Below, one piece after another: positions 6,951 to 25,700 of a stretch of DNA of 64,000 bases (position 1 is the first letter of the stretch; every line of letters begins with the position of its first letter). Source of the stretch: Pseudomonadota bacterium (GTDB lineage Bacteria > Pseudomonadota > Gammaproteobacteria > Pseudomonadales > Pseudohongiellaceae); NCBI GenBank assembly GCA_027592275.1, contig JAQCKF010000001.1, positions 124,001 through 188,000 of the forward strand. Reading direction: 5' to 3'. The notes beneath the pieces are model-generated. The model worked only from the letters and a program-made list of their open reading frames with translations, did not search any database and had not been told where the DNA came from. Both the position numbers and the translations under genes were made by a program.

Positions 6951-8024
6951 ATGGAACTCAGGCAACTGAGGAACACCGAGGGCAAGCAGCATTTGCCCCT
7001 ACAGCCTCTGTCACGACTTATAGCTCTAGCGGCGCTAAGCCTTAGCATAGTGGCATGTCAGTCTAGTAGCTCGAGCTCGAGCAGTTCACCATCTATGCCT
7101 TCGCTGCCATCTAGCTCTAGTAGTAGTTCTTCAAGTTCTAGCCAGAGCCAGAGCCAGAGTGGGCAACAATCTAGTCAGAGCAGTACTGCAGGCAGTCAGC
7201 CGTCAGCGAATTCAAGCAGTGCGGGTCAGCAACCTGGGCAAGAAAGCAGAGATGGATCAAGTCCCGGAGAACAGGGTGCGCAGCAGGGTAGTCAATCGGC
7301 CGGTAGCGCAGCAGGATCAACGCCAACAGGTACATTAGGTAACAGTACTGGTCAGGGAACGGGTTCTCAGGCCCGATTGCCAGAGGCGGGAAGTCAGTCA
7401 GGCAGCGGCGACAGAGATGGATCTACTGGCGATCTCGGCGCTGGCGCAAGCCAATCGTCTGGTGGCGGATTAGGTCGTCCAAGTGGAGATTATAGTTTAG
7501 ATACGCTGCCAGATGGCGTATTAAGTGGGGGAACAGGCGCCGGCAGCCAAGACTCAAACGGCCAGGTTCGTTCGGGAAGTGGAGATGGCGGAGCACAACC
7601 TAGTGGTAATGTTGCGATGACGGCGCAAGAGCGCGCAGAAGTATTGGATGAACAGCTACGCCGCGGCTACGAGACATTCGACGGATTTATTCTTAGTGAG
7701 AGAGAACGAGCGCAGGCCGAGAGCAATGCGGCGGGGTCATCTGCGGCAGGCGGTTCGGCAGGCGGCGGAAGCAGTTCTTCACAACCACAGACAATGCCTG
7801 AATCGGGTGCTGCGGCAGTATTGGCATCCTCACTACCGCCTGGAGTATCTAATTCGCCACCGCAAGAAACTTTTCCTGCCCCGGAAGACATTCCCAGTGG
7901 ACGTGACGATGATGTTGTAGCGAGACAACTTCGCGAGGCAGCAATGAGTGAGCCCGATCCACAATTGCGCGAAGCCCTTTGGCAGGAATATAGAAACTAC
8001 ACAGGTTTAGGTGAAGACCAATGA
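6951..8024 (+). CDS. Ser/Gly/Gln-rich low-complexity predicted lipoprotein
   Basis: Lipobox-like LSIVAC followed by poly-Ser/Gln/Gly; stop overlaps next start. Confidence 0.65.
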   Translation: MELRQLRNTEGKQHLPLQPLSRLIALAALSLSIVACQSSSSSSSSSPSMPSLPSSSSSSSSSSSQSQSQSGQQSSQSSTAGSQPSANSSSAGQQPGQESRDGSSPGEQGAQQGSQSAGSAAGSTPTGTLGNSTGQGTGSQARLPEAGSQSGSGDRDGSTGDLGAGASQSSGGGLGRPSGDYSLDTLPDGVLSGGTGAGSQDSNGQVRSGSGDGGAQPSGNVAMTAQERAEVLDEQLRRGYETFDGFILSERERAQAESNAAGSSAAGGSAGGGSSSSQPQTMPESGAAAVLASSLPPGVSNSPPQETFPAPEDIPSGRDDDVVARQLREAAMSEPDPQLREALWQEYRNYTGLGEDQ

Positions 8025-9226
8025 GTTCAATGACAGCTTTAACGGTCCATCAGGCAAAGAACATATTGGGTGTTGGGCTTCTAGCACTCATGCTGGCGGC
8101 TTGTAATGCACATACAATTAAGACCACCAGCTATACGCCCATCGTTCAAGATAGTCAGAATGTGTTGGAAGATTTACTTCTCGATGTTGGCGTCGCGGTG
8201 TTCGATCCGGGTATAGATGAAATTGATAAACGCGACGAAGAAACTACTAATCATGAAATTCGTGTAGCCGAGTCGCGCTATGCGCCCTTCCTCTTGGCGG
8301 AAACACTGCAGCGTTCGGCGAACTGGGGCATCGTGCGTTTGATGCCCAATAACGAAAGCCCAATGGACGTTACTGTAAATGGCACTATCTTGCAGTCAGA
8401 TGGCGAGGCCATGCAGATCCGCATCCAGGTTACCGATTCGAGTGGTCGTGAGTGGTACACCAAGGTTTATGATGAGGTAATCAGTCAGTTCAGCTACGAG
8501 CCTTCGCAGCGACAGCAAGCCGATCCCTTTCAGGTTATCTACAACAAGATCTCCAACGATCTATTGGAGTATAGAAAACGCAATTTGACGAACCGGCAGA
8601 TCGTAGAGATTCGCACGATATCCGAATTACTGTTTGCTCGTCGATTCTCACCGGAAGTATTTGATTCGTATTTGACGACAAATCGCCAAGGCAATCTGGC
8701 TATAACTGCTCTTCCAGCCGAAACTGATCCGGTTCTACAAAGAGTACGAGACATTAGAGAGCGGGACTTCATGTTTATTGATACCGTTCAGGATTACTAC
8801 GCTACCTATGTAAGACAGATGCGATTGCCCTATGACACATGGCGGGCATTGAGCTACGACGAAACGATTGAGCTTAGAGAGTTAAGGGCATCGGCTAATC
8901 GTCGGTTCGTTGCAGGTGCGGCGGCGGTTCTCGGCGGCTTGGCCGCGGCGACTAGCGGTGGAAATTATGCGACTCAAACTGGCGGCGCAATTGGTGTTGG
9001 CGCCGGCGCGTTCTTGATTAAGAGCGGCTTCGATAAACGAGCCGAAGCAAAATTACATTCGGACGCATTGGAAGAATTGGGCGAGTCCCTAGAAAACGAA
9101 GTTGCTCCACGCGTGTTTAGTCTGGACGATCGTACCATCACACTCACCGGTTCAGTCGAAGAGCAGTATGCTCAGTGGAAAGACGTTCTGGCAGATATCT
9201 ACGCGTCAGAAGTAGGTGATATTTAA
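8021..9226 (+). CDS. Predicted lipoprotein of unknown function
   Basis: Lipobox LMLAAC; overlaps the preceding CDS by 4 nt; Gly/Ala-rich hydrophobic stretch in the C-terminal third. Confidence 0.7.
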   Translation: MSSMTALTVHQAKNILGVGLLALMLAACNAHTIKTTSYTPIVQDSQNVLEDLLLDVGVAVFDPGIDEIDKRDEETTNHEIRVAESRYAPFLLAETLQRSANWGIVRLMPNNESPMDVTVNGTILQSDGEAMQIRIQVTDSSGREWYTKVYDEVISQFSYEPSQRQQADPFQVIYNKISNDLLEYRKRNLTNRQIVEIRTISELLFARRFSPEVFDSYLTTNRQGNLAITALPAETDPVLQRVRDIRERDFMFIDTVQDYYATYVRQMRLPYDTWRALSYDETIELRELRASANRRFVAGAAAVLGGLAAATSGGNYATQTGGAIGVGAGAFLIKSGFDKRAEAKLHSDALEELGESLENEVAPRVFSLDDRTITLTGSVEEQYAQWKDVLADIYASEVGDI

Positions 9227-9271: not shown

Positions 9272-10807
9272 ATGACAGATAAAGATGTCGACAAGATTGA
9301 CGCTATCAATTTTGATCACAATGATAATTCAGTATTTTTAAATCAGGCTGCCACTGCACAAGTCGAAAAACCCGCGCCGTGGATTTGGTTTGGCTTGGGT
9401 GGCCTGCTGTTGCTTGCCTTAATAGTTATTTTTGTTCTTCCTTCTATTGTTTCCGAATATGAATTGCCTTTAGAGCGGCGAGTTGGTTTGGTTGATATCC
9501 CCGTTGCCGAAACTGTGGCTAATACTACAAGCGCAATCTCTCCCTTCGAAGAGTCGCAACGCGCTTTACAGCGCAAAGAAGCACAGGACGTGCTTGCTGA
9601 GTTATTGGCATATCAGGCTGAATTGGATGCTCTGGACGTAGCCGTTTGGGGGCAGCAAGATTACGCGGCCTCCTTGGAGCAGGCCAGTATTGGCGACGAG
9701 TATTATCGGAGGCAGGACTTTGTATTGGCTCGCGAATCCTACGAGATCGGCCGCGTGGGGTTAAGCAGTCTAATCGATTCGGTTTCCTCGGTTCTCGCGC
9801 AGACACTTATTGAAGCAGAGCAGGCGCTGATCGAACTGGATTCAGCAGAGGCGCTTACAAAATACACTTTAGCGCTGCTGCTCGATCCGGGAAACGAGTT
9901 GGCGCAGATAGGCGAGCAACGCGCGCTAACCTTGGACGAAGTCAGTGCGCTGTTGAAAGAGGCTGACGATTTAGTCGAGGACGGCGAATTGCAACAGGCT
10001 CTCGCGAACTACCGTGAAGTGTTAAATTTGGACGGCTACAATGAGGTTGCCGCGGGGGAAGTCGCTGCAGTATCTCTACTCATTACCGAAAACGAATTTG
10101 CCCAAATTATGTCGAGTGGTTATGTGTTGCTGCAAGCCGGCGAACCCGAAGAGGCAGTGGCCGCATTTCAGAGAGCCTCCCGACTTGGTATCAAGCAGGA
10201 TGAAGCACAGGCCGCAATCAACCAAACCGAGAACGAGATTGCGAATACCGAAATTAATCGATTAAGTGGGCTGATTACAACAGCGCTACAGAACGAGCAA
10301 TGGCAAGACGCGGTCGAACAATACGACAATGTCCTCGCTATCGATAGTAATCTACTTTTTGCAATCAACGGCCGTGACTACGCGGACAAGCGGGCGAGGT
10401 TAGATCGATTGTTAGTGGAAGCCGTAGATAATCCGGAACGATTTTCTGAGGACGAAGTTTTCGAAGAGACGCGCATATCCTATTTCATTGGTCGAGACAT
10501 TGAGAGTCCAGGGCCTAGGCTCACCGAGCAGCTAGATGAATTAGAAGCCTTCTTGGAATACTCGCTTGTGCCAATAGATATCTCTTTTAGATCAGACAAT
10601 GAGACTCAAGTTACATTACTAAGAATCGAGGACATGGGGATGTTTGAGAAAACGTCTCTCTCGCTGAAGCCGGGACGTTATGTTGCCATAGGTAAACGCA
10701 GTGGCTACAGAGAAGTTCGCGAAGAGTTTACTGTAGGCTTTGGCCTCACCCCAGAGGCTGTCATCGTTCAGTGCGATGAACCCATCGCTTCTTCAAGCAG
10801 GCGATAA
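9272..10807 (+). CDS. Single-TM TPR-like protein
   Basis: TM WIWFGLGGLLLLALIVIFVLPSIV; repeated helical segments (SIGDEYYRRQDFVLARESYEIGRVG, ELQQALANYREVLNLDGYNEVA). Confidence 0.7.
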   Translation: MTDKDVDKIDAINFDHNDNSVFLNQAATAQVEKPAPWIWFGLGGLLLLALIVIFVLPSIVSEYELPLERRVGLVDIPVAETVANTTSAISPFEESQRALQRKEAQDVLAELLAYQAELDALDVAVWGQQDYAASLEQASIGDEYYRRQDFVLARESYEIGRVGLSSLIDSVSSVLAQTLIEAEQALIELDSAEALTKYTLALLLDPGNELAQIGEQRALTLDEVSALLKEADDLVEDGELQQALANYREVLNLDGYNEVAAGEVAAVSLLITENEFAQIMSSGYVLLQAGEPEEAVAAFQRASRLGIKQDEAQAAINQTENEIANTEINRLSGLITTALQNEQWQDAVEQYDNVLAIDSNLLFAINGRDYADKRARLDRLLVEAVDNPERFSEDEVFEETRISYFIGRDIESPGPRLTEQLDELEAFLEYSLVPIDISFRSDNETQVTLLRIEDMGMFEKTSLSLKPGRYVAIGKRSGYREVREEFTVGFGLTPEAVIVQCDEPIASSSRR

Positions 10808-10810
10808 TCG

Positions 10811-12889
10811 ATGAGCAATAGTGATGAAATAAGGGATATAAATGGGGCAACTGATCCTATTACTCCCATAGACTTCACTCCGCACAGTGAAGAGACCCAA
10901 GTTTTTTCCTACAAATTTAAATGGCTGCATGTAGTGATAGCCAGTTTTCTGCTCGTATCGCTGTCGACGGGATGGTTTGTGTTAACTGCTCGATCTGTGT
11001 TTGTAGAGGTAAATCCTATAACCGCACAAATGAGCATCGATACCGGCACTAGTTTCAAGTTGGGCCAACGCTATCTAATGCGCACAGGTTCCTATCAGCT
11101 TACGCTGAAAAACGAGGGTTATCACGATACCGTCACTCGTTTATTGGTAAACCGAGAACAATCGCAGACGCATCCGTTCGTGATGCGCAAACTCCCAGGA
11201 ATTATTAGCTTCGATAGTGCAGATATCTTGGAGGCGAGAATCAGAATAGACGGTGTCGATATCGGGCAAACACCGTTAGTGAATGTAGAAGTAGAACCGG
11301 GCGAGCATCAGCTATCAATTTCAAAAGACCGGTATCTCGATTTTGGCGAGACAATCAATATCGAGGGCAGAACAGTCGAGCAGAGCTTTTCGGCAAGTTT
11401 GGAGCCCGCATGGGCGACTGTAAGCTTGACTACCACGCCAAGTGGAGCGGATGTCTTGGTGGACGGCGAACTTATTGGTAGCACACCAATAAACGCCGAA
11501 ATTATCCAGGGACAGCGTGACCTCGTATTAAAACTCGCAGGGCATAAGGCCTGGCAGGAAGAATTCGATGTGCTCGCTGGCGAAGACTTTTCTGTACCAT
11601 TGGTTGAGCTAGAACCTGCCGATGGGCTGTTGTTCATCCAGTCGAACCCTACTGCTGCAAGCGTAACAATCTCAGGGGAGTTCAAGGGGCTCACTCCGTT
11701 AGAAGTTGCACTGCCTCCGGGCCAGAATCATGAACTTACCTTTTTCAAGAACGGCTATAACTCGAACTCGCTCTCGATCCAGACGCAGGCGAACGAAGAG
11801 CGAGAGTTAACTATAGATTTGGAGCCAATATTGATGACAGTCAGTGTCATGGCTCAACCAGACGACGCCGAGCTCTATGTGGATGGCGAATTCAGAGGAG
11901 CTGCAAATCAGACCATCGAGTTGATGGCTGCAAGTCAGCAGATCGAAATCCGCAAGGCAGGCTTTATTCCCTACTCAACCGAATTCACTTCCCGTCCAGG
12001 GCTGGAACAAATAATTAGGGTCTCTCTCAAGTCTCTAGAGCAGGCACGCTTGGAACAGATTAAACCAGTAATCGTGTCGGCGGCGGGGCAGGCGCTTAAA
12101 CTATTTTATCCGGGTGCATTCACCATGGGTGCTTCGCGACGTGAAGCGGGGAGAAGGCCGAATGAGAATCTTCGCGACATCAAACTAGAAAGGCCTTTTT
12201 ATCTGGGTAATCGTGAGGTTACTAATGCTGAATTCAGATTGTTTAATGCAGAGCATAGCTCTGGAACCCTAGAGGGACTGACGCTCGACAACGAGGCGCA
12301 ACCCGTCGTCCGCATTACATGGGCCCAGGCAGCGCTATTCTGCAATTGGTTGAGCGACCAGGAATCATTGCCGCATTTTTACGAGGTCGCAGGCGAGGCT
12401 GTCGTTGGGTTCAATGCAGAGTCTCCCGGTTATCGCCTTCCCTCCGAGGCGGAGTGGGCCTGGGCAGCAAGAACCGATGGCAGCGGGAATCAGCTTAAGT
12501 ATTCCTGGGGAGACACAATTCCGCCGCCAGAAAATTCGGGAAATTTTGCGGACATAACTGCCCAGTCCTATCTTGGACAAATAATGTTCGATTACGATGA
12601 TGGCTATCTCGCAACCGCTCCGGTCGCGTCGTTCGATGTAAATCAATACGATCTTTATGATATGTCGGGCAATGTCGCCGAGTGGGTGCATGACTTTTAC
12701 GGCGCAGTTGGGGCTATAGGTGGAGTCGAGGTCGACCCGTTAGGATCGAGTGAAGGCCAATTTCATACGATTAGAGGGTCTAGCTGGGCGCACGGCTCGA
12801 TAACTGAACTGCGATTGTCTTTTCGCGATTTTGGCGAAGACGTGCGCGACGATGTTGGTTTTCGGGTAGCGCGTTATTTGGAGGAATAG
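10811..12889 (+). CDS. PEGA-repeat protein with C-terminal SUMF1/FGE-like (pseudo-enzyme) domain
   Basis: TM near N-terminus; repeated PEGA-like units (TTPSGADVLVDGELIGSTPI, SNPTAASVTISGEFKGLTPLEVALPPG); FGE-like GAFTMGASRREAGRRPNE...REVTNAEFRLF...YRLPSEAEWAWAAR...YDMSGNVAEWVHDFY...GFRVAR. Confidence 0.88.
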   Translation: MSNSDEIRDINGATDPITPIDFTPHSEETQVFSYKFKWLHVVIASFLLVSLSTGWFVLTARSVFVEVNPITAQMSIDTGTSFKLGQRYLMRTGSYQLTLKNEGYHDTVTRLLVNREQSQTHPFVMRKLPGIISFDSADILEARIRIDGVDIGQTPLVNVEVEPGEHQLSISKDRYLDFGETINIEGRTVEQSFSASLEPAWATVSLTTTPSGADVLVDGELIGSTPINAEIIQGQRDLVLKLAGHKAWQEEFDVLAGEDFSVPLVELEPADGLLFIQSNPTAASVTISGEFKGLTPLEVALPPGQNHELTFFKNGYNSNSLSIQTQANEERELTIDLEPILMTVSVMAQPDDAELYVDGEFRGAANQTIELMAASQQIEIRKAGFIPYSTEFTSRPGLEQIIRVSLKSLEQARLEQIKPVIVSAAGQALKLFYPGAFTMGASRREAGRRPNENLRDIKLERPFYLGNREVTNAEFRLFNAEHSSGTLEGLTLDNEAQPVVRITWAQAALFCNWLSDQESLPHFYEVAGEAVVGFNAESPGYRLPSEAEWAWAARTDGSGNQLKYSWGDTIPPPENSGNFADITAQSYLGQIMFDYDDGYLATAPVASFDVNQYDLYDMSGNVAEWVHDFYGAVGAIGGVEVDPLGSSEGQFHTIRGSSWAHGSITELRLSFRDFGEDVRDDVGFRVARYLEE

Positions 12890-12893
12890 GACT

Positions 12894-13160
12894 ATGCGTA
12901 AACTATTTTTGTTTGCACTGTTAAGTTTCTGCCAATTCACAATCGCGGCGGAGAATGATCCGCCGGCTCAAGATGTGGGTCCTCAAGAGGCTGTGCAAGC
13001 CGAGTCAGATAGTAGCATCGAGCCTCAAAAAGACGGCAGCGAGCTAATCGCCGCTGAGATTTTAGATACAAACGAAGATGAAGAAGAATCTTCGGGACGT
13101 TTTATTCCGACTGAGGAAATTTCACAGGACCTCGGCGTTTCGTTTCCCGTCGATATTTAG
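12894..13160 (+). CDS. Small exported acidic protein of unknown function
   Basis: Signal peptide-like MRKLFLFALLSFCQFTIAAE; tightly spaced within the operon. Confidence 0.5.
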   Translation: MRKLFLFALLSFCQFTIAAENDPPAQDVGPQEAVQAESDSSIEPQKDGSELIAAEILDTNEDEEESSGRFIPTEEISQDLGVSFPVDI

Positions 13161-13191: not shown

Positions 13192-14004
13192 ATGAAGCAA
13201 AGGTTGTTATCGGAAGCACTCTATCAAGTCGCTGCATTAATTATTGCGGTGATCGTTGTTCACGCAGCCTATGTAGCGGTGATACGGCCTAACGCCGATT
13301 TGATCCAGCAACAGCAAAACGTGTTACAACAGACGGATCCTAACTTCGAACCGGAGCGCTCGATCTATATTATCTTGCGCGACTTCGAGCAAGAGACATG
13401 CATAATTTTATTGCTTTGGGCGCTTTCGATGCTGGGCATGAAGGTACAGCAGACACTGCGAGAGAGGGCGCTGTTAGAGCGAACCCTGATCAACATATCC
13501 GATGGCATGAGTATATTGCCCGAAGATGCTCGCAACTATGCGCGTACGATTCAGGCGTTGCCGGAAAGAGAACGTCAATTCCTCTTGCCGAGAGCATTGC
13601 TAGCCGGTCTGCATAGATTTCAATCTACTAAAAATATTCAAGACGTAGCGACTACCATCAAGGTCGCTTGTGAAACCGAAGCAGATAGAATGGAAACGGA
13701 ACTGACGATTGTCCGCTATATTGCTTGGGCGATTCCGTCGATTGGATTCCTTGGCACCGTTCGAGGCATTGGTACGGCACTGGGCCAGGCCTATCAAGCT
13801 GTGAGCGGAGACATCGTGGGTGTTACTACCAGTCTGGGTGTGGCCTTTAACTCAACCTTCGTTGCACTTGTGGTAAGCATCTTGCTGATGTTTGTGCTTC
13901 ACCAATTACAATTGATTCAAGACAGGCTGGTATTGGATTGTCAGAACTACTGTGACGACAAAATGCTGAGACATTTGCAAGTACCAGAAAGAGATGCCAA
14001 ATAA
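13192..14004 (+). CDS. MotA/TolQ/ExbB-family proton channel-like protein
   Basis: ATG at 13192 preferred over the upstream in-frame start; WAIPSIGFLGTVRGIGTALGQAYQA and GVTTSLGVAFNSTFVALVVSILLMFVLHQLQ are MotA_ExbB signatures. Confidence 0.88.
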   Translation: MKQRLLSEALYQVAALIIAVIVVHAAYVAVIRPNADLIQQQQNVLQQTDPNFEPERSIYIILRDFEQETCIILLLWALSMLGMKVQQTLRERALLERTLINISDGMSILPEDARNYARTIQALPERERQFLLPRALLAGLHRFQSTKNIQDVATTIKVACETEADRMETELTIVRYIAWAIPSIGFLGTVRGIGTALGQAYQAVSGDIVGVTTSLGVAFNSTFVALVVSILLMFVLHQLQLIQDRLVLDCQNYCDDKMLRHLQVPERDAK

Positions 14005-15302
14005 TGAGTTTGAAAGTTATCGAGTTAAACGATAACGCCTTACGTGTTGGCGATGAGTCGGGAATCCTAATTGAGAGTCCGGGCTTCGCTTTGGTCGCGG
14101 AAAACAAAAAGCTGGTACTAGGTGAGGCTGCCAAACAACAGGCACGGATACACCCTACCAACAGCTATAACCGCTACTGGCACGAACTCAGTATTGACCC
14201 GTTGAATCAATCGCCCGGCATACGTCATTTTGCCGATATTGCCTACGCACATCTCCTACATTTAGCAGAAGCAGGCGAGATCGATGGGGATGTGATATTC
14301 GCCGTGCCAGGAAATTTTACCCGAGCGCAACTGGCTATCTTGTTGGGCCTCGTCAATCAGAGCCCGTTTCGGACAGCAGGCCTTGTGGATTCTGCGCTGG
14401 CGGCGGTGTCCTCCACGAATCTGGAGTTCGATTCCTACGTCTATGCCGAGTTGCAATTGCACCAAGTCGTGCTAACCAAAATCACAGTAGACAACGACAT
14501 TCTTAAACGGGAAGCAGTTATTCAAGTCCCGGGCGTAGGCAGTCAGAATTTCATGGATCTTATGATGCAGTTGGCTACGGATTTGTTCATTCAGCAGTGT
14601 CGATTCAACCCTCAACACGACGCAGAATCGGAGCAGCAACTGTATAATGTACTTCCTTCGTGGCTGCGGCAGGATGATGGAGATCAAAATAGTCTTCTGA
14701 TTGAACTAACGGCGAAAACAGCGGTTCACACAGCCAAGATGCCACGCAAGAGCCTGATCAGTAATTTGTCAGGACATTACAAGAGTATCGGACAACAAGT
14801 CGCTGAGCTCGCGGCAGTAGGTAATAGCAAACTACTATTGAGTCCCGAGTTCGCAGAGCTTCCTGGTTTTCATTCTTATCTTTGTGAGAGCATCAAAATA
14901 GAGCTGCTCCGAGTTGATGCGATTAGTAAGTCAGTATTCCAAAATCGCGCAAGCATTATCCGTGGTGATAAACAGGTCGAATTGGTTACAAAACTAGTCA
15001 AGATTGCGGATACGGCAAAGGCGAATGATAAGCGCGCCTTGAAAGTCGCGGCTAAGGAGGAAGAAGCAGCGACCCATGTACTCATTGGTAGTAAGGCGAT
15101 TCCTTTGGCCAAGATGGATCTCCCAGGGCAGCTTGGACGAATAGAAAAGCACGATGAAACGTTCTACTTAGATAGCGGTAAGCAAGAGTTTCTATTGAAT
15201 CAACTTAAAGTTGCCGGAAAACATGCGATTGGTTTGGGCGACTTGGTTCAGTGCAGCGAGGGTAGCGAGGTGATTCGACTAATACAGGTAAGCAATGTCT
15301 AG
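14004..15302 (+). CDS. Degenerate Hsp70/actin-fold (YegD-like) protein
   Basis: VIFAVPGNFTRAQLAILLGLVNQSPFRTAGLVDSALAAVSS resembles the Hsp70 VITVPAxFxxxQRxA...NEPxAAAL segment; 1-nt overlap with the MotA-like gene. Confidence 0.6.
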   Translation: MSLKVIELNDNALRVGDESGILIESPGFALVAENKKLVLGEAAKQQARIHPTNSYNRYWHELSIDPLNQSPGIRHFADIAYAHLLHLAEAGEIDGDVIFAVPGNFTRAQLAILLGLVNQSPFRTAGLVDSALAAVSSTNLEFDSYVYAELQLHQVVLTKITVDNDILKREAVIQVPGVGSQNFMDLMMQLATDLFIQQCRFNPQHDAESEQQLYNVLPSWLRQDDGDQNSLLIELTAKTAVHTAKMPRKSLISNLSGHYKSIGQQVAELAAVGNSKLLLSPEFAELPGFHSYLCESIKIELLRVDAISKSVFQNRASIIRGDKQVELVTKLVKIADTAKANDKRALKVAAKEEEAATHVLIGSKAIPLAKMDLPGQLGRIEKHDETFYLDSGKQEFLLNQLKVAGKHAIGLGDLVQCSEGSEVIRLIQVSNV

Positions 15303-16395
15303 TAGCAAAGCAAGACGCAGAAATCTAAACCCCATCAGCCTGGCATTCCTAGATGTCATGTTCTGTGGGTTTGGTGCTGTGATTTTGATTTTCCTAATTC
15401 TTGATCATAACAGCACAGTGACCCCCTCGGAGCAGAACCCCGATCTGGCCGCCGAGGTAAATTTGCTGCGGGAAGAGGTCAGGGACGGTGAGTTAGGTCT
15501 GGTTCAGCTGCGCAACATCTACTCCGATGTGAGTTTCGAAGTTGTGACTGCCGAGGGTTTGGCTACTCAGATTCAGGAGCAGCTACAAACGTTCCTGCAA
15601 GAGTTAGCAGCCCTGGAAAATTCAAGCGTTGCTACCGAAAAGAGCATCGAACAACTGCGCGCAGACGTACAAGCCCTGGAAGAGGAGCTACTGCGTCTGC
15701 AGGCGAGCGCCTTCGAGCAGGAAGGCAATAGCGTGCGGCAATTCTTAGGAGACGGAAGCCGACAGTATTTATCTGGTTTATTTTTGGGCGGCCAGCGTAT
15801 TCTAATATTGGTAGACAGCTCTGCGAGTATGCTCGACAGCACGCTGGTGAATATTATTCGTACTCGCAACATGTCAGACGATCGCAAGAAGCAGGCTCCT
15901 AAGTGGCAGCGAGTTGTTAAGACCGTAGACTGGATTAGCACACAACTGCCAATCACGAGTCGCTACCAAATCTGGGAATTCAACGAGGATCTCAAATCAG
16001 TGTTGGGTGGCTCTCTAGACAGCTGGCAAGAAGTCGCAGACCGAGATGGGCTTAACGATGCGATCGAGAATGTGAAGGATATCGTGCCGGCGAATGGCAC
16101 AAACTTGGAACAAGTTTTTAGGGCTGTCGCAAATATGTCACCAATGCCGGACAATATTTTCCTGATAACTGATGGTTTACCCACTCTAAGCGACCGCGGC
16201 TCGAATGATGCTCTGGTCACGCCCGCGGAGCGTATGGAGCTTTACGAAGATGCCTTGGAAGAGCTGCCTCGGGGCATACCGGTCAACGTCGTGCTGCTGC
16301 CCTTGGAAGGAGACCCCAGCGCTGCCGCAGCTTATTGGCAGCTTGCCCAGTACACTACTGGTTCTTTTATATCGCCCTCGAAGGATTGGCCATGA
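15295..16395 (+). CDS. TM-anchored VWA-domain protein, MotB/TolR-like N-terminus (paralog 1)
   Basis: NPISLAFLDVMFCGFGAVILIFLIL TM; coiled coil; MIDAS DSSAS in ILILVDSSASMLDSTL. Confidence 0.82.
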   Translation: MSSSKARRRNLNPISLAFLDVMFCGFGAVILIFLILDHNSTVTPSEQNPDLAAEVNLLREEVRDGELGLVQLRNIYSDVSFEVVTAEGLATQIQEQLQTFLQELAALENSSVATEKSIEQLRADVQALEEELLRLQASAFEQEGNSVRQFLGDGSRQYLSGLFLGGQRILILVDSSASMLDSTLVNIIRTRNMSDDRKKQAPKWQRVVKTVDWISTQLPITSRYQIWEFNEDLKSVLGGSLDSWQEVADRDGLNDAIENVKDIVPANGTNLEQVFRAVANMSPMPDNIFLITDGLPTLSDRGSNDALVTPAERMELYEDALEELPRGIPVNVVLLPLEGDPSAAAAYWQLAQYTTGSFISPSKDWP

Positions 16396-17393
16396 GACGT
16401 AAGCGCGGAGAAACAGATTCTTTTTCAGTATCTTTCCTTGACGTAGCTGCCTGTGGCTTCGGTGCCATGATTATCTTGCTGATGATTACGAAGTCTGGTG
16501 AGCCAGTTTCCATCGAGTTCGTAGATGTACCACCGGAGGGGGCAATCACTGAGTTGCAGGAACAGTTGTTCGCCATTCGTGGAGAAACCACAATCTATAA
16601 CCGTGACTTGAATGCCAAGCACGAGCAACTCTCCGCCATGAAGGATCGTATAGCTAGACTGCAGAGAGATCTGGATGACGCAAAGGGCCGTTTTCAAACC
16701 TCGAACCAGTTATCGACCGAAATTACCGACGAGGTGGGACGCCTTGCCATAGCACAACAAAGCATGACTCAAGAGATGCAGCGCCTGCTCGCGAACAGCA
16801 GTGCACCGGAGAACAACGCGATTGGTGGCGTGCCTGTAGATAGCGAGTACATTATCTTCGTGATCGATACCTCGGGCAGTATGTATGGCAATGCTTGGAA
16901 CAAGATGCTTGGTGTTATTGATGACACGCTGAATGTTTATCCCGAAGTTAAGGGAATTCAGATCATGAATGACATGGGCGATTATATGTTCGATTCTTAT
17001 CGGGGTCAGTGGATTCCAGATACGCCTGGGCGTCGAAACACTATTGTTTCTACGCTGCGAACCTGGAATCCCTTCAGTAACAGTAGCCCCGTAGAAGGAG
17101 TGACGCGCGCTATAAATACCTTCTACGAGCCCGGTAAGAAAATTAGTATCTATGTGATCGGTGATGATTTTCAGCCTGGCGGGTCTATTCAGAACGTATT
17201 GCAGACGATTGATCGAATCAACTTGGAAGACGAGAACGGTGATAGATTAGTCCGCATTCACGGCATCGGCTTTCCTGTCATTTTTGCGGGGCAAGCGCGA
17301 TATCGGCAGAGTGTTTATAGATATTCGACTCTAATGCGAGAGATGACGCAGCGAAATGGTGGTACATTCGTAGGTCTGAATGATTTCCAGTGA
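16392..17393 (+). CDS. TM-anchored VWA-domain protein, MotB/TolR-like N-terminus (paralog 2)
   Basis: ATG at 16392 overlaps the previous stop; DSFSVSFLDVAACGFGAMIILLMI TM; coiled coil; MIDAS DTSGS in IIFVIDTSGSMYGNAW. Confidence 0.82.
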   Translation: MRRKRGETDSFSVSFLDVAACGFGAMIILLMITKSGEPVSIEFVDVPPEGAITELQEQLFAIRGETTIYNRDLNAKHEQLSAMKDRIARLQRDLDDAKGRFQTSNQLSTEITDEVGRLAIAQQSMTQEMQRLLANSSAPENNAIGGVPVDSEYIIFVIDTSGSMYGNAWNKMLGVIDDTLNVYPEVKGIQIMNDMGDYMFDSYRGQWIPDTPGRRNTIVSTLRTWNPFSNSSPVEGVTRAINTFYEPGKKISIYVIGDDFQPGGSIQNVLQTIDRINLEDENGDRLVRIHGIGFPVIFAGQARYRQSVYRYSTLMREMTQRNGGTFVGLNDFQ

Positions 17394-17432: not shown

Positions 17433-18059
17433 ATGAGTACAGTGAGTGGATCGATGACAGGCAGGGTGAAAACGGCACTGATATTTGTGGCAGCGCTCTA
17501 CCTAACTGCCTGTGGCGTGAACAACGTAGTTATCGAGGGAAGCTTCCCTACGCCCAAGATCAATAAGCTACCTCTCAACGTGGCGGTCTATTACGATCCT
17601 GCACTCACAGAATTTGCCTATATCGAATACTCTGAAACTGGGAGTGAAGAATACAATATTGCCAGCGGGCAATCCCATATTGAGCTTTTTAGCACAGTAC
17701 TGCCCGCTATGTTTGACGGGGTCGTAGTGGTCAATTCGATCGAAGAGGCAAAGGACTTGGGCGTCGATGCGATTTTCGCGCCAATTATAGAAGAGTTTCA
17801 ATTGGCCCTGCCAGCCAAGACCAAACTCGATGTCTACGAGATTTGGATTAAATACAATATGCGTTTGATGACGGCTGATGGCGACTATATCGCGGACTGG
17901 GTGTTGACTTCGTATGGTAAGACTCCGACTGAGTCGCTACGTTCGGTAGAAGCCGCAATCAATGCGGCGGCTATAGTTGCGCTTCGTGACCTAGCTTCGA
18001 GTTTTTCTCTAAGCTTCTCACAGGTTCCGGAAGTTAAAGATTGGTTAAATACGTTGTAG
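17433..18059 (+). CDS. Predicted lipoprotein of unknown function
   Basis: Lipobox-like LYLTAC; same strand and spacing as the operon. Confidence 0.65.
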   Translation: MSTVSGSMTGRVKTALIFVAALYLTACGVNNVVIEGSFPTPKINKLPLNVAVYYDPALTEFAYIEYSETGSEEYNIASGQSHIELFSTVLPAMFDGVVVVNSIEEAKDLGVDAIFAPIIEEFQLALPAKTKLDVYEIWIKYNMRLMTADGDYIADWVLTSYGKTPTESLRSVEAAINAAAIVALRDLASSFSLSFSQVPEVKDWLNTL

Positions 18060-18104: not shown

Positions 18105-18773
18105 ATGAAGCACTTTCTAGGGAAAAATAGGTTTGGCATTGCCCTGCTGCTTTTGGCTTCGCTTGCCTCCTGCACGACCACGACTATCGATGAGTTTCGC
18201 CAAGGCGAAACTGGCATAGAGAATCACGAGTCGGTAGTTATTCTTGGGCGACGACAGGCCAGCGACTACGAGACGCGTTCCAAATTTGTAGAATGTGTCG
18301 GTGAGCGGATGACTCGTGGCGAGAACTCAATCAGTGTTGTGCCGGAACAAGAATTTGTTGATGCGATGTTCCCATGGTTTGAACCAAGAACTGCGCCTTT
18401 ACGTACTCGTGATTTGGAGCGCCTGATGACCGAAGCAGTTGTCTCTGAAAGGATGACTGAGTTTGGAGTTCGTTACATAGTTTGGCTGGATGGCTTCACC
18501 GAAACAACGGATCGCAGCGGATCAATATCTTGCACAATCGGCCCAGGGGGCGCGGGCTGCTTTGGTTTTGGGTCATGGGAAGATGACGCCAATTTTGATG
18601 CTCGTGTTTGGGATGTAGGCTCTTTAACGAACGTAGGCACCATAAGCACGGATGCAACTGGCCAGTCCTATCTTCCAGCATTCATTATTCCAATACCGCT
18701 AATAGCCAGGGTTGAAGCAAACGCCTGCTCACGCCTCGCAACTCAGCTTAAAGATTTCGTAAACGGTAGTTGA
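18105..18773 (+). CDS. Predicted lipoprotein of unknown function
   Basis: Lipobox LASLASC. Confidence 0.65.
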   Translation: MKHFLGKNRFGIALLLLASLASCTTTTIDEFRQGETGIENHESVVILGRRQASDYETRSKFVECVGERMTRGENSISVVPEQEFVDAMFPWFEPRTAPLRTRDLERLMTEAVVSERMTEFGVRYIVWLDGFTETTDRSGSISCTIGPGGAGCFGFGSWEDDANFDARVWDVGSLTNVGTISTDATGQSYLPAFIIPIPLIARVEANACSRLATQLKDFVNGS

Positions 18774-18831: not shown

Positions 18832-20349
18832 ATGACGAATCTGGCTGTAACAAGCTCGGCTGAATCATCAACTCTGGTAAATCGAATCCTAGAGGCAGCT
18901 ATCCTAGTCTGCGTTTTCTGTCTGTTCCCCTTTCTGACATCCTGTGCGGTCAATCCTGCCACAGGTAGCCCAAATTTAGTTCTCATGTCCGAGAGTCGAG
19001 AGAAAGAGATCGGTTTGGAAGAGCACAATAAAGTTCTTTCTAGCATGTCTATGTTCGAAGATGAAGACTTACTCGCCTACGTTCGTGAAGTCGGCAACAA
19101 GGCGGCTGCAGTTAGCCATCGTCCAGATTTAGAATACACATTCAATATAATTGATAGTCCGGAGATAAATGCGTTTGCCCTACCCGGAGGTTATGTTTAT
19201 GTAAATCGTGGCTTGCTTACTTTTATGAATTCGGAGGCAGAATTGGCCGCCGTACTTTCTCATGAGATTGGACACATTACGGCGAGGCACGCGGTTCAAC
19301 AACAGGCCCGTGGACGCCTTGCTCAGACAGCCGCTACGGTTGGCGGTTTCGTCACTGCGGTGGCAACCGGCAGCGGCTACGTTGGAAACCAAATTAGTGA
19401 AGTAGCCTCAATTTGGGCACAAACAGGCTTAAGCGGATTCAGCAGAGAGCATGAGCTCGAGGCGGACAGCCTCGCGGCAGAATATCTAGTTAAGGCTGGC
19501 TACGATCCAGCCGCGATGATCGAAGTAATTACTGTGCTTAAGAATCAAGAAGACTTTAATAGACTAGTTTCAAATACCAGTGGAGGGTATCACGGCCTAT
19601 TCGCTACGCACCCACGAAACGATACGCGGCTGCAACAGGCGATTACTCAAGTAGGTAGTATTTCAGGGAATGAGATTACAGAAGCAGATGATACAAAATT
19701 CAGAGAAAGCCTTGATGGACTTGTAATTGGTCAGAGCCAGGGGTCGCAATCTACCGATGCGCGTAACCGTTATTATCAGACATTGCTTGGCTACACCGTG
19801 GTGTTCCCTGACGAATGGTTGATAGATGAAACCACTACGACAGTGACTGCCACTAGTGCCGAGCAGGGTTCCATACATATCGAGGTGCAGCGCATACAAG
19901 AGAATGTAGAGCCACGTATATTTATTAGAGACGAGATGGGAATAGGTGCCCTGCAAAAATCGGAGAAGCTCGAGCAGTATCGGCTGGTAGGCCATACCGG
20001 TGTAGCAGTGTCACCTGAGACTGGGAACACCGAAAGAGTTGCCGCGATCTATCTGGGGCCGAGAGTGTTCACCTTTCGTGCAGAGATAACAGATGCAGAA
20101 GCAAGCGATGAGATCGATGAGAAACTGCTCGCATCTATTCGAACCTTTAGAGCGATTCAACAAGGGGAGACCGCATCCGGAACGGAAGCGAAGATAAAGT
20201 TCGTCCAGGCAAGTGAATTCTTTGATTTCTCGGTAGTGGCTCAATCCAGCCGCATCGCGAACTATCCAGAAGAGTCGCTGCGCCTTCTCAATGGCTACTA
20301 CCCAAGAGGCACTCCCGAAGCGGGCGAGTGGGTGAAGCTGATCGAATAA
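18832..20349 (+). CDS. M48-family zinc metalloprotease, predicted lipoprotein
   Basis: ATG at 18832 with GAGGTGG upstream; lipobox FLTSC; VLSHEIGHITARHAVQQ (HExxH), REHELEADSLAAEYL. Confidence 0.9.
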   Translation: MTNLAVTSSAESSTLVNRILEAAILVCVFCLFPFLTSCAVNPATGSPNLVLMSESREKEIGLEEHNKVLSSMSMFEDEDLLAYVREVGNKAAAVSHRPDLEYTFNIIDSPEINAFALPGGYVYVNRGLLTFMNSEAELAAVLSHEIGHITARHAVQQQARGRLAQTAATVGGFVTAVATGSGYVGNQISEVASIWAQTGLSGFSREHELEADSLAAEYLVKAGYDPAAMIEVITVLKNQEDFNRLVSNTSGGYHGLFATHPRNDTRLQQAITQVGSISGNEITEADDTKFRESLDGLVIGQSQGSQSTDARNRYYQTLLGYTVVFPDEWLIDETTTTVTATSAEQGSIHIEVQRIQENVEPRIFIRDEMGIGALQKSEKLEQYRLVGHTGVAVSPETGNTERVAAIYLGPRVFTFRAEITDAEASDEIDEKLLASIRTFRAIQQGETASGTEAKIKFVQASEFFDFSVVAQSSRIANYPEESLRLLNGYYPRGTPEAGEWVKLIE

Positions 20350-20558: not shown

Positions 20559-22361
20559 ATGACAGCTACAGAAGAAGTTAAAAAACCTTCCGTCAAGAAG
20601 AATTCTTTATTGGAATTGAAGGGTTTTCTGAACGGGCTGCTTAATGATGAGCGCATCAATCAAGAAGATTTTGATTATGTACTCAACAATCGTCGGTCAA
20701 TCGAAGACCGAGACAAGCACATTCTTCAATACATAGCCGATCTGAACGTGGAAGATCGTAAGTCTCAAGGCCGTAAACTGGACATCGAAAGCCTTGCGAT
20801 GGCGTTAAGTACACAGTGTGGTCAGGACTACTACCGTATCGATCCTTTAAAAATCGATGCAGCCGAAGTGACGCTGGTTATGTCTTATGCTTTCACTCAA
20901 CGTCACCATATATTGGCTGTTGAAGTTACCGCATTAGCCGTGAAAATTGCCAGCGCAGAGCCGTACATCGATTCCTGGGAATCTGACCTAGAACATGTAT
21001 TAAAAAAGAAAATAGTTCGCGTTGTTTCCAATCCCATCGAGATCAAGCGTCTCACTACAGAGATGTATAGCTTATCCAGTTCGGTCAGTCGAGCACAGGA
21101 AGCCGGCCAAGTTAAGAAAGGCATCGGCAACTTAGAACAAATGTTGGAATTGGGTCATATCAAAGACCCGGAGGCTAACGACAAGCACATAGTCAATGTC
21201 GTTGATTGGATATTGCAATATGCCTTCGAACAAAGAGCAAGTGACATTCACATCGAACCGCGTCGAGAGAAAGGCAACGTGCGTTTTAGAATCGATGGTG
21301 TGTTATACATGGTTTACTCGCTGCCAATGCAAGTGCTTGCCGCTGTTACCAGTCGTCTTAAAATTCTAGGCCGCATGAACGTCGCAGAGAAACGTAAACC
21401 CCAAGACGGAAGAATTAAGACCAAGAGCCCGAACGGAAACGAGGTTGAGCTTCGCCTTTCTACACTGCCGACCGTGTTCGGCGAAAAGCTTGTAATGCGA
21501 ATTTTTGATCCAGAAGTGCTGTTGAAACCTTTCCAAGAACTAGGGCTTATAAACGAAGACCTGAATCGTTGGAAAGAGATCATCAAGAACAACAACGGTA
21601 TCGTGATTATCACCGGGCCAACAGGTAGCGGTAAGACGACAACGCTGTATTCCACCTTGAAGATGCTGGCCACAGAAGAAGTAAACGTCTGTACCATTGA
21701 AGATCCGATAGAAATGGTTGAAGAATCATTCAATCAGATGCAGGTTCAAGAGAATATTGACTTGAACTTTGCCGATGGCGTGAAGGCATTGTTGAGACAG
21801 GACCCGGACATCATCATGATAGGTGAGGTACGTGATCTTCCAACCGCCGAGATGGCTATTCAGGCTGCGTTGACTGGGCATCTGGTTTTTACCACTCTGC
21901 ACACTAACGACGCGCCATCGGCGATCACTCGCCTACTAGAGTTAGGTGTACCTTCCTATCTCATAAAGGCCACCGTTATAGGAATAATGGCACAGCGACT
22001 CGTGCGCGTTCTTTGTCCACACTGCAAGAAAGAAACTCAGATAGAAGCAGAGACCTGGGAAGCACTAACTCGTCCTTGGAAAGTAAAGCTACCGAAGAAG
22101 ACCTTTGAGGCAGCGGGCTGTTTGGAATGTCGTGAAACAGGTTTCAAAGGAAGAGAAGGTATCTATGAAGTGATGCCATTCACCGAGCCCTTGCAACAAC
22201 ATTCCGATAATAAGGGCGATCTGACCACTCTTCGCAAGCAAGCCTATAAAGAAGGTATGCTTAGCCTGCGTTTAAGCGGGGCGCAAAAAGTAGCTGCGGG
22301 CATTACCACCGTCAAAGAAATTTTGCGCGTTACCCCCGACAACATAGACCGAAGGCATTAG
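20559..22361 (+). CDS. GspE/PilB-family secretion/pilus ATPase
   Basis: ASDIHIEPRREKGNVRFRIDG, Walker A GPTGSGKTTTLYSTL, RQDPDIIMIGEVRD, CPHC...CLECRETGFKGREGIYEV. Confidence 0.93.
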   Translation: MTATEEVKKPSVKKNSLLELKGFLNGLLNDERINQEDFDYVLNNRRSIEDRDKHILQYIADLNVEDRKSQGRKLDIESLAMALSTQCGQDYYRIDPLKIDAAEVTLVMSYAFTQRHHILAVEVTALAVKIASAEPYIDSWESDLEHVLKKKIVRVVSNPIEIKRLTTEMYSLSSSVSRAQEAGQVKKGIGNLEQMLELGHIKDPEANDKHIVNVVDWILQYAFEQRASDIHIEPRREKGNVRFRIDGVLYMVYSLPMQVLAAVTSRLKILGRMNVAEKRKPQDGRIKTKSPNGNEVELRLSTLPTVFGEKLVMRIFDPEVLLKPFQELGLINEDLNRWKEIIKNNNGIVIITGPTGSGKTTTLYSTLKMLATEEVNVCTIEDPIEMVEESFNQMQVQENIDLNFADGVKALLRQDPDIIMIGEVRDLPTAEMAIQAALTGHLVFTTLHTNDAPSAITRLLELGVPSYLIKATVIGIMAQRLVRVLCPHCKKETQIEAETWEALTRPWKVKLPKKTFEAAGCLECRETGFKGREGIYEVMPFTEPLQQHSDNKGDLTTLRKQAYKEGMLSLRLSGAQKVAAGITTVKEILRVTPDNIDRRH

Positions 22362-22368
22362 CTTTGAG

Positions 22369-23418
22369 ATGACGCAAAAGAGCCAAGAGAATATTCTGGT
22401 GGTTGGGCCCGCATGGGTTGGCGATATGGTCATGGCGCAATCCTTGTTCATGTGCTTAAAGGAACAATACCCAGATTGTCGAATTTCAGTTCTAGCGCCA
22501 GATTGGACTCGGCCTCTGCTGGAGAGAATGCCCGAAGTAGAGAAAGGGATTAGCCTGGCGATAGGTCACAGAGAGCTGCAACTAGGAAAACGCCGTGCTC
22601 TGGGAAGGTCTCTTCGTGGCGAGCAATTTACTACCGCTATCGTGCTACCGAACTCGTTCAAGTCGGCATTGATTCCCTTGTATGCCGGTATAGAGAGGCG
22701 GATAGCCTGGAAAGGTGAATGGCGCAACTTCTTACTTAGCGACTGTCGACGCCTCGATAAGAAGGCATTCCCTCTTATGGTGCAGCGTTTCGCTGCCTTA
22801 GCCTATCCGGACTCCAATGAGCCACCAGATCATATCCCTAACCCTAGATTGCAGTCCGATCCCAATAGCGTGGCCCAGACGCTGGCTACATTTGACCTAG
22901 GGGTTGAGGACAGGATATTGGCAATTTGTCCGGGAGCGGAGTTCGGTGTGGCCAAACAATGGCCTGCTGAGCATTTTGCCGCAACCTGCAAAACTAAGAT
23001 CGACGAAGGATGGCAGGTATGGATATTTGGCTCCGAAAAGGACGCTGAAGTCTCCGATAAGATTTTGCAGATGCTTGCCGAGGAGCAAAGGCAGAAATGT
23101 GTGAGCCTAGCAGGTAGGACGACCCTATCTCAGGCGATCGATCTCTTGTCGCTTGCCGAGGCTGTCGTATCCAACGATTCAGGGCTAATGCATATAGCGG
23201 CTGCACTTGATAAGCCGATTGTTGCGCTTTATGGTTCAACATCGCCCGACTTTACGCCGCCATTGAGCAACAAGTCGAAATTATTGTTCACGGATATCGA
23301 TTGTCGACCCTGCTTTCAGAGGGAATGTCCTTTGGAACACAAGAAGTGCCTAACAGAGCTTGAGCCTAGTAGAGCGGTAGCCGCTATCAATGAGCTAACC
23401 CTCGCTGGGCGCAATTGA
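22369..23418 (+). CDS. waaF: ADP-heptose:LPS heptosyltransferase II
   Basis: ILVVGPAWVGDMVMAQSLF, NDSGLMHIAAALDKPIVALYGSTSPDFTPPLS. Confidence 0.93.
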   Translation: MTQKSQENILVVGPAWVGDMVMAQSLFMCLKEQYPDCRISVLAPDWTRPLLERMPEVEKGISLAIGHRELQLGKRRALGRSLRGEQFTTAIVLPNSFKSALIPLYAGIERRIAWKGEWRNFLLSDCRRLDKKAFPLMVQRFAALAYPDSNEPPDHIPNPRLQSDPNSVAQTLATFDLGVEDRILAICPGAEFGVAKQWPAEHFAATCKTKIDEGWQVWIFGSEKDAEVSDKILQMLAEEQRQKCVSLAGRTTLSQAIDLLSLAEAVVSNDSGLMHIAAALDKPIVALYGSTSPDFTPPLSNKSKLLFTDIDCRPCFQRECPLEHKKCLTELEPSRAVAAINELTLAGRN

Positions 23419-23477
23419 CTGATGAACCTTAGGAAAAACCAGAATAGGTTAGAAGAGAACAGGAAAGGAATAGTTCA

Positions 23478-24551
23478 TTGCGAGTGCTAATAGTAAAAGT
23501 CTCTTCTCTTGGTGATGTGATTCATACGCTGCCTGCAGTCACCGATGCGCAGCGCGCGAGAAAAGATATTCAATTCGACTGGGTGGTTGAGGAAAATTTC
23601 GCCGAGGTGCCGAGCTGGCATCCCGCCGTCGAAAATGTCATACCGGTGGCGCTAAGACGTTGGCGGCGTAACATCTTGAAGACCTATATGAATCACGAAT
23701 TTCGTGCGTTCAAACGCTCATTGCAAAGCGTTCAATACGACCTTGTTATTGATGCCCAGGGACTTATCAAGAGTGGGTTTATTAGTAGGCTCTCCAAGGG
23801 ATTAACGATAGGGCTCAGCAATAGGACCATTCGTGAGCCAATGGCCACGTTGTTCTACAACAAAGTTTATTCTGTTCCCTGGACAGAACACGCCGTGGAT
23901 AGGGTTCGTCAATTGTTTTCTCGTGCGCTGCAATACGAATACGATCCGCAGGAGATCGACTACGGTGTCGATGTTAGTAGAATAGACTCCCCTAGTGGAT
24001 TTAGTGAGAAAGCGGACAAGCAGGTAGTGTTTCTTCACGGCACAACGTGGCAGACAAAGCACTGGCCTGAAAATTACTGGCGTCACCTCGCACACATAAG
24101 TACAGAGGCGGGTTATAAAGTTCTTCTGCCTTGGGGTACGCCGGAGGAAAAATTACGCGCTCAGTTTATCGCTCAGGATAACGAGCGGGTAGAGGTACTT
24201 GATAAGCAGACACTATCCGGACTAGCCAATTACATCCAGCAGTCTGATGGCGTGATCGCCGTGGATACTGGTCTGGGCCATTTAGCTGCAGCACTAGCGA
24301 AGCCAACAATTTCTCTTTATGGGCCAACGAATCCCGGACTCTCTGGGACTTTTGGTAATAATCAATTGCACCTCAATTCGAGCCTAAACTGTGCGCCTTG
24401 TGTCAAGAAGACATGTGGATACTCAGGTCCTGGAGTTACCGAGGAATATGCAGGGAATTCATTTGCGGTTACTCCACCGTGTTTTGCATCCCACGGACCG
24501 GTTGAAGTCTGGCAGCAGTTCGAGAGTTTATTGGGCAATCTTAATCGATGA
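23478..24551 (+). CDS. waaC: LPS heptosyltransferase I (TTG start)
   Basis: RVLIVKVSSLGDVIHTLPAVTDA, WVVEENFAEVPSWHPAV, VDTGLGHLAAALAKPTISLYGPTNPGLSG. Confidence 0.93.
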   Translation: MRVLIVKVSSLGDVIHTLPAVTDAQRARKDIQFDWVVEENFAEVPSWHPAVENVIPVALRRWRRNILKTYMNHEFRAFKRSLQSVQYDLVIDAQGLIKSGFISRLSKGLTIGLSNRTIREPMATLFYNKVYSVPWTEHAVDRVRQLFSRALQYEYDPQEIDYGVDVSRIDSPSGFSEKADKQVVFLHGTTWQTKHWPENYWRHLAHISTEAGYKVLLPWGTPEEKLRAQFIAQDNERVEVLDKQTLSGLANYIQQSDGVIAVDTGLGHLAAALAKPTISLYGPTNPGLSGTFGNNQLHLNSSLNCAPCVKKTCGYSGPGVTEEYAGNSFAVTPPCFASHGPVEVWQQFESLLGNLNR

Positions 24552-24562
24552 ATAGTTAACCA

Positions 24563-25690
24563 ATGCATCTGAGCTTTCTCATCTACTCCTATTTTCCGTT
24601 TGGCGGATTGCAGCGGGATTTTCTTCGCGTAGCAAAAGAATGTATGTCGCGCGGGCATAACATTACTGTCTACACGTTGAGTTGGGATGGCGATATTCCG
24701 GATGGGATAGATCTCATCTTGGTGCCCGTCACGACGCGAAACCGCATCAAACGTAACCAGGCCTACACCGAGTGGGTCCGCGCAGCGTTGAGTCAACGGG
24801 ATGACAGCCTCGTGATTGGTTTCAACAAAATGCCATTCTTGGATATCTACTTCGCCGCAGATCCCTGCTTTATGGAGAAGGCGACGGAGCAGCGAGGCTT
24901 CTACTACAAATTTACTTCGCGATACAAACATTTCAAAATGTATGAAGAGGCCGTTTTTGCAGCATCTCAGCGAACTGAAGTGTTAATCCTTTCTCTCCGT
25001 CAACGCACAGCATTCGAGAAATATTATCCTGATTGCGGGCCGCGTCTTCGCCAAGTTCCTCCTGGGATTTCGATAGATAGGAAAGTCGATACAAGAGACA
25101 AGGAAATTGGAATTCAATTACGCTCTGCTTTGGGCCTGGCTGCGACTACAAAACTGCTCCTACAAGTCGGTTCAGGCTTTCGAGTAAAGGGCGTGGATAG
25201 GTCGCTCAGAGCAATGGCAGCTCTTCCAAAGGCAGAGCTAGAGAACTGCCACTATTTGCTTGTTGGGCAGGACAATCCCCATCGCTATCTAAGACTTGCT
25301 AAGAAATTAGGCGTCGCCGAGCAATTCACTGTGCTTGGTGGTCGCGACGATATACCTAAATTCTTGGCAACAGCTGACTTGTTGCTACATCCGGCCTATT
25401 CTGAGAGTGCGGGTTATATGCTGTTGGAGGCAACTATCGCTGGACTACCGGTGCTTACGACCTCAACCTGCGGTTATGCCTTCCATATTGAGCAGGCGAA
25501 GTCCGGGCTAGTGTGCAGTGATCCCTTCGAGCAATCGCAACTGAATAGTTATCTGGCACAGATGTTAGGGAGCCTAGACACAGCCGATTGGTCGAAGAAT
25601 GGTCTGGAATATGGCAGGCAAGACGAGCTATATTCGCAGGCGTCTGCTGTGGCAGACTTTTTCGAAGAGTTTTTGGCCAGAGAAGCCTAG
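24563..25690 (+). CDS. waaG: LPS core glucosyltransferase I-like (GT4)
   Basis: FLIYSYFPFGGLQRDFLRVAKE, DLLLHPAYSESAGYMLLEA; synteny after waaF-waaC. Confidence 0.9.
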   Translation: MHLSFLIYSYFPFGGLQRDFLRVAKECMSRGHNITVYTLSWDGDIPDGIDLILVPVTTRNRIKRNQAYTEWVRAALSQRDDSLVIGFNKMPFLDIYFAADPCFMEKATEQRGFYYKFTSRYKHFKMYEEAVFAASQRTEVLILSLRQRTAFEKYYPDCGPRLRQVPPGISIDRKVDTRDKEIGIQLRSALGLAATTKLLLQVGSGFRVKGVDRSLRAMAALPKAELENCHYLLVGQDNPHRYLRLAKKLGVAEQFTVLGGRDDIPKFLATADLLLHPAYSESAGYMLLEATIAGLPVLTTSTCGYAFHIEQAKSGLVCSDPFEQSQLNSYLAQMLGSLDTADWSKNGLEYGRQDELYSQASAVADFFEEFLAREA

Positions 25691-25700
25691 GGCGCGGACT

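Follow-up and report, generated by a model that had tools for sequence, protein, structure and literature searches.

A conserved gammaproteobacterial envelope operon encoding a TolQ-like subunit and paired VWA proteins, probable axle subunits of a proton-driven motor

Genes and distribution of the operon

The window, a stretch of 64,000 nucleotides from a gammaproteobacterium of the family Pseudohongiellaceae, contains an operon that encodes two paralogous VWA proteins, here termed B1 and B2, and a MotA/TolQ/ExbB-family protein, the A subunit, whose gene lies two genes upstream of B1 (Table 1). The sequence-only reading had described a pair of VWA proteins, each with a transmembrane (TM) helix, a coiled coil and an intact MIDAS, and both open reading frames were confirmed with this architecture. 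The true start of B2 is an ATG (16392), whereas the TTG further upstream (16335) is merely the first possible start of the open reading frame. B1 shares 4 nt (ATGA) with B2, and the gene upstream of B1 overlaps B1 by 8 nt and the A gene by 1 nt (TAATG). From these overlaps, the four genes for A, the Hsp70-fold protein, B1 and B2 may be translationally coupled. In Pfam searches, B1 scored above the cut-off for VWA_2 (E 3.2e-6), while B2 stayed under the cut-off, but its relatives reached E 3.3e-6 for VWA. The DxSxS motif is invariant in both proteins (D174/S176/S178 in B1, D159/S161/S163 in B2), and the further MIDAS residues (distal Thr/Asp) are T269 and D293 in B1 and D258 in B2.

Table 1. 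Genes of the operon and the adjoining peptidase gene (positions in the window).
Feature	Position	Strand	Properties
Ser/Gly-rich predicted lipoprotein	6951..8024	+	conserved first operon gene
lpB, predicted lipoprotein	8021..9226	+	Cys28 97% conserved; N-terminal TolB-N/PelC-like domain and long helical hairpin with glycine-rich tip
TPR protein	9272..10807	+	periplasmic, inner-membrane-anchored
PEGA-FGE protein	10811..12889	+	PEGA repeats and FGE-sulfatase-like domain without catalytic Cys (pseudo-FGE); inner-membrane-anchored, periplasmic
Small predicted secreted protein	12894..13160	+	weakly conserved
A subunit, MotA/TolQ/ExbB family	13192..14004	+	270 aa; PF01618 E 1.8e-15, 57.2 bits (cut-off 22.9)
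Hsp70-fold protein	14004..15302	+	cytoplasmic; C-terminal FHA-like domain; nucleotide/phosphothreonine motifs look degenerate; missing in some lineages
B1	15295..16395	+	366 aa; TM helix FLD20VMFCGFGA, predicted N-in; coiled coil; predicted periplasmic VWA, MIDAS intact
B2	16392..17393	+	333 aa; B1 paralogue; TM helix FLD17VAACGFGA, predicted N-in; coiled coil; VWA, MIDAS intact
lpC, predicted lipoprotein	17433..18059	+	kept in most gammaproteobacterial copies
lpD, predicted lipoprotein	18105..18773	+	kept in most gammaproteobacterial copies
M48 metallopeptidase	18838..20349	+	often but not always the next gene

Gene content was compared across 45 loci spanning 20 kb or more, a set that was picked through B2 and is thereby biased to near relatives: the genes for A, B1 and B2 occurred in all 45, lpB and the genes for the TPR and PEGA-FGE proteins in 44 each, those for lpA and the Hsp70-fold protein in 43 each, and lpC and lpD in 38 each. 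Distant copies retain the series lpB-TPR-PEGA/FGE-A-B1-B2, with the Hsp70-fold gene missing in some. In two loci (L101, L107), the A gene was found after B2 and not before B1. Sampling of the class yielded B1 in 31 of 369 genomes; for the phylum, B2 was present in 16 of 399. Culturable carriers include Microbulbifer, Pseudoalteromonas denitrificans and Seongchinamella. Within the genus, B1 was near-universal (56 of 61 genomes), which argues against a Zorya-like anti-phage system. The A subunit does give a weak ZorA match (E 2.8e-4); however, at 270 aa it lacks the long ZorA tail, no match to ZorB, ZorC or ZorD was obtained among the five operon proteins scanned, and B2 had no match in phage or plasmid records. 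We therefore regard a Zorya-like role as scarcely credible.

Two further regions of the window were noted. Downstream of the operon, at 20559-26501, a GspE/MshE-type ATPase gene (T2SSE, MshEN) is followed by apparent genes for heptosyltransferases and other LPS-core glycosyltransferases. At 41481-44839, an HlyD-type adaptor gene adjoins that of an ABC transporter carrying a C39 peptidase domain, likely a double-glycine peptide exporter.

An invariant aspartate in the transmembrane helices of B1 and B2

The TM helices of both proteins carry a near-invariant F-L-D-x(3)-C-G-x-G signature, and its Asp was conserved in 71 of 71 B1 and 69 of 69 B2 sequences. Among 165 non-redundant B1/B2 pairs the residue was replaced in none: D/D was scored automatically in 157, and the remaining eight comprised seven truncated, broken or misframed open reading frames and one YLDV sequence (L129) in which the Asp is present. 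Conservation among orthologs, on which the sequence-only reading had staked its case, was thus observed in both families. The N-termini of B1 and B2 are basic, TM prediction peaked at residues 18-36 in B1 and 15-33 in B2, and 137 of 138 proteins (70 of 70 B1, 67 of 68 B2) had a higher net charge before the helix than behind it. This charge pattern predicts a cytoplasmic N-terminus and an external VWA domain and would place the Asp where the helix meets the cytoplasm, the position it has in ExbD and TolR and the side of the membrane that a relay function calls for.

The A subunit provides a fitting partner. Its residues T189 and T222 align with the pore threonines in four of four TolQ/ExbB sequences and were invariant in 101 A proteins; in TolQ, the corresponding T145 and T178 form a polar ring near Asp23 of TolR (PMC12215075). 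Four other residues fixed in A (R142, R175, W179, R191) are mostly missing from the few TolQ/ExbB proteins aligned. No ExbD, TolR or MotB gene is present in the operon. The operons of the other loci hold no ExbD gene either, and the ExbD matches that occurred in four loci lay near the ends of the locus stretch.

Four ExbD genes are present elsewhere in the same genome. They could supply the pore helices if B1 and B2 were transducers of the TolA/TonB type docked beside the A ring, and a separate vWA family with an SHLS motif that adjoins tolQR is described in PMC12204202. However, the TM helices of B1 and B2 contain no SHLS-type His motif, their invariant residue being the Asp; the operon is devoid of ExbD; and the A ring has its own set of fixed residues, named above. 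We consider side docking very improbable, and retain B1 and B2 as the candidate pore subunits.

The sequence-only reading had also expected the N-terminal regions to match ExbD/TolR/MotB profiles, and this expectation failed. PF02472 did not match B1 or B2 at E≤1 in a Pfam scan. An HMM of the ExbD N-terminus gave 4.6 bits against B1 (E 7.9), just under the best unrelated open reading frame and hence noise. With hhalign, the score of the B helices against ExbD was equalled by 19 (B1), 29 (B2) and 16 (both together) of 150 column-permuted controls. Scans with Pfam, NCBIfam and PADLOC yielded neither ExbD/MotB nor defence homology for B1 and B2, and profiles of the B proteins, run against PDB sequences, returned coiled-coil noise only. 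The periplasmic ExbD/TolR domain is absent from both proteins, and the VWA domain stands in its place. Since the profiles give no link of the B helices to ExbD, we did not class B1 and B2 as ExbD proteins, and we do not claim that they are homologous to the known B subunits. The proposal that the FLDV Asp is a relay of the ExbD/MotB kind was thus sustained in part: it rests on the position and invariance of the residue, the predicted topology and the cognate A gene, and draws nothing from profile similarity. On this basis B1 and B2 probably function like ExbD.

The lack of similarity to ExbD would also fit a pair of membrane-anchored scaffold proteins, or a metal-dependent adhesion module, in which the Asp merely positions the helix and no ion-driven motion takes place; VWA domains are common protein-binding scaffolds. 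But both paralogues have an invariant charged residue close to where their sole TM helix begins, and the same operon encodes an ExbB-type subunit with conserved pore threonines. A purely structural role for the Asp therefore appears improbable to us, and B1 and B2 are treated below as motor subunits.

Pairing of B1 and B2

A maximum-likelihood tree built from 69 sequences placed the B1 proteins in one clade and the B2 proteins in another (100/100 for either), and Gammaproteobacteria, Desulfatiglandales and Kiritimatiellota were present in both. Because the two clades share these lineages, a single duplication predates the spread of the system, with both copies retained. Such an ancient, kept pair favours a B1:B2 heterodimer.

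The state of the TM Cys (D+4) agrees with this arrangement. Cys was present in both partners in 143 pairs and Ser in both in 13 pairs, and no mixed pair was found. The joint change from Cys to Ser in both paralogues is as expected of two helices that share one pore or environment. The S/S pairs seem to belong to one family outside the class, so they probably constitute a single lineage and may reflect a single event. In view of this lineage, the TM Cys was dropped as a candidate essential residue. In loci L229-L236, L252-L254 and L257, which represent one family of another class, the TM signature is altered in both proteins at once, to FLDIMASGLGA in B1 and FLDIISSAFAA in B2, and this offers a natural test of the roles of the TM Cys and Gly.

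Alternatively, each ring could hold a homodimer, (B1)2 or (B2)2, resulting in two motors with different heads and one shared A subunit. The known B subunits ExbD, TolR and MotB are homodimers, and to our knowledge every 5:2 motor studied uses a symmetric B homodimer. B1 and B2 are also far apart in sequence, being about 23-35% identical where their N-terminal parts match. However, they occur in tandem in every complete locus, their genes overlap, their trees largely mirror each other, and their TM Cys/Ser state never differs. We consider separate homodimers unlikely, and the B1:B2 heterodimer is kept as the preferred assembly.

Accessory proteins of the operon

The AlphaFold2 model of the protein encoded between A and B1 (pLDDT 90.8) matched the fold of DnaK (E 2.7e-17), and in 8 of 38 relatives Pfam identified a C-terminal FHA domain (best 2.3e-14). 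The combination of an Hsp70 fold with an FHA domain is an unusual domain pair; the window protein itself had no Pfam match. Relatives with both parts were seen in loci L163, L169, L175, L180, L182 and L187, some of them with SRxH-type and NGT-like FHA residues. By hand alignment, the window copy has seemingly lost the phosphate-loop glycines and the SRxH residues of the FHA domain, and its nucleotide loops look degenerate. An active ATPase was therefore dropped as a candidate function, and the apparent losses led us to take the product as a putative adaptor.

The best NCBIfam match of the PEGA-FGE protein was GldK (4.7e-31) at 108.5 bits, under the equivalog cut-off of 350. In 91 of 95 relatives no Cys occurred in the last 133 columns, and the catalytic Cys pair of FGE was not found. 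PorK displays the same Cys loss, and its repurposed FGE fold builds a ring that the PorLM motor is believed to power (PMC12421860). For lpB, a structure was predicted with a pLDDT of 85.9, and its N-terminal part weakly resembled TolB (5.5e-4) and PelC (1.1e-3). Residues 295-330 of lpB form a glycine-rich hydrophobic hairpin tip, a possible membrane-inserting element.

Proposed motor

Taken together, B1 and B2 are probably the two axle (B) subunits of a proton-driven 5:2 motor with VWA heads, an A ring and partners in the envelope; the 5:2 assembly, the heterodimer, ion flow, rotation and partners are what we infer. An inner-membrane ring of five A subunits would hold one B1 and one B2 helix in its pore, with D20 of B1 and D17 of B2 at the cytoplasmic end, opposite T189 and T222 of A. 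Protonation and release of the Asp residues would turn the ring or the axle, and the coiled coils would pass this motion on to the two VWA heads in the periplasm. These, in turn, may bind the pseudo-FGE/PEGA protein, the TPR protein and the lipoproteins in a metal-dependent manner, and the Hsp70-fold/FHA-like protein may bind the motor from the cytoplasmic side.

We know of no phenotype for motor genes of the B1/B2 type; our guess is that the motor energises an outer-membrane or surface process. On the larger claim we are evenly balanced: the operon may encode a previously undescribed proton-driven trans-envelope machine in which a TolQ-like ring holds a heterodimeric VWA axle, an Hsp70/FHA-like protein acts as the cytoplasmic adaptor, pseudo-FGE/PEGA and TPR proteins form a periplasmic scaffold, and TolB/PelC-like lipoproteins are further parts. 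Such a machine would follow the plan of the T9SS and Tol as a separate system, across Gammaproteobacteria and some other phyla. A motor with fixed and different B subunits, each with its own VWA head, would allow distinct roles of the axle helices in the proton cycle to be tested directly. The conserved gene set supplies a list of parts among which the target of the motor can be sought, and it shows pseudo-FGE scaffolds alongside probable proton motors outside the Bacteroidota.

Relation to published predictions and known systems

The idea of a VWA-headed proton motor is already in print as a prediction and is not new here. Section 8 of PMC12204202 (msaf138, Mol Biol Evol, June 2025) describes 'TPH-vWA' genes that occur as heterologous pairs tightly linked to tolQ-like genes, with no tolR/exbD. 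It reports a conserved Asp in the pore helix and AF3 models that put the paired Asp in a Thr ring; in its Fig. 4c-d, with a seed from Idiomarina, the family extends over Proteobacteria and Verrucomicrobia and is proposed to turn inside the pentamer. The passages on this family state no phenotype. The function that the sequence-only reading had assigned is likely correct, although homology does not prove it. What appears to be new is the conserved multi-gene cell-envelope operon around the pair, apparently unstudied: a literature search, conducted mostly outside subscription papers and without bioRxiv preprints, found no study of it.

Likened by description, B1 and B2 share with the TPH-vWA family the vWA domain, the Asp-bearing helix, the heterologous pairing and the tolQ-like neighbour without tolR/exbD. 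The wider operon, the single ancient duplication and the co-varying Cys residues go unmentioned in those passages of PMC12204202. As in ExbBD/TolQR (PF01618 and PF02472), the A subunit carries two pore threonines and a B-type Asp is predicted to lie on the cytoplasmic side of the only TM helix; in contrast, the B proteins described here combine a coiled coil with a VWA domain, are encoded by two distinct genes and have a TM helix without detectable similarity to ExbD. With MotAB/PomAB the system would share the 5:2 motor logic, and it shares the TM Asp in B, whereas Pfam detected no OmpA-like peptidoglycan-binding domain in either B protein, a point against the motor model, as the axle has no evident anchor. 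Like GldKLMN/PorKLMN of the T9SS, it probably encodes a proton motor, alongside an FGE-fold protein devoid of the catalytic Cys; however, its B subunits are VWA proteins and not GldM, and its FGE-like protein is inner-membrane-anchored with PEGA repeats and not a lipoprotein.
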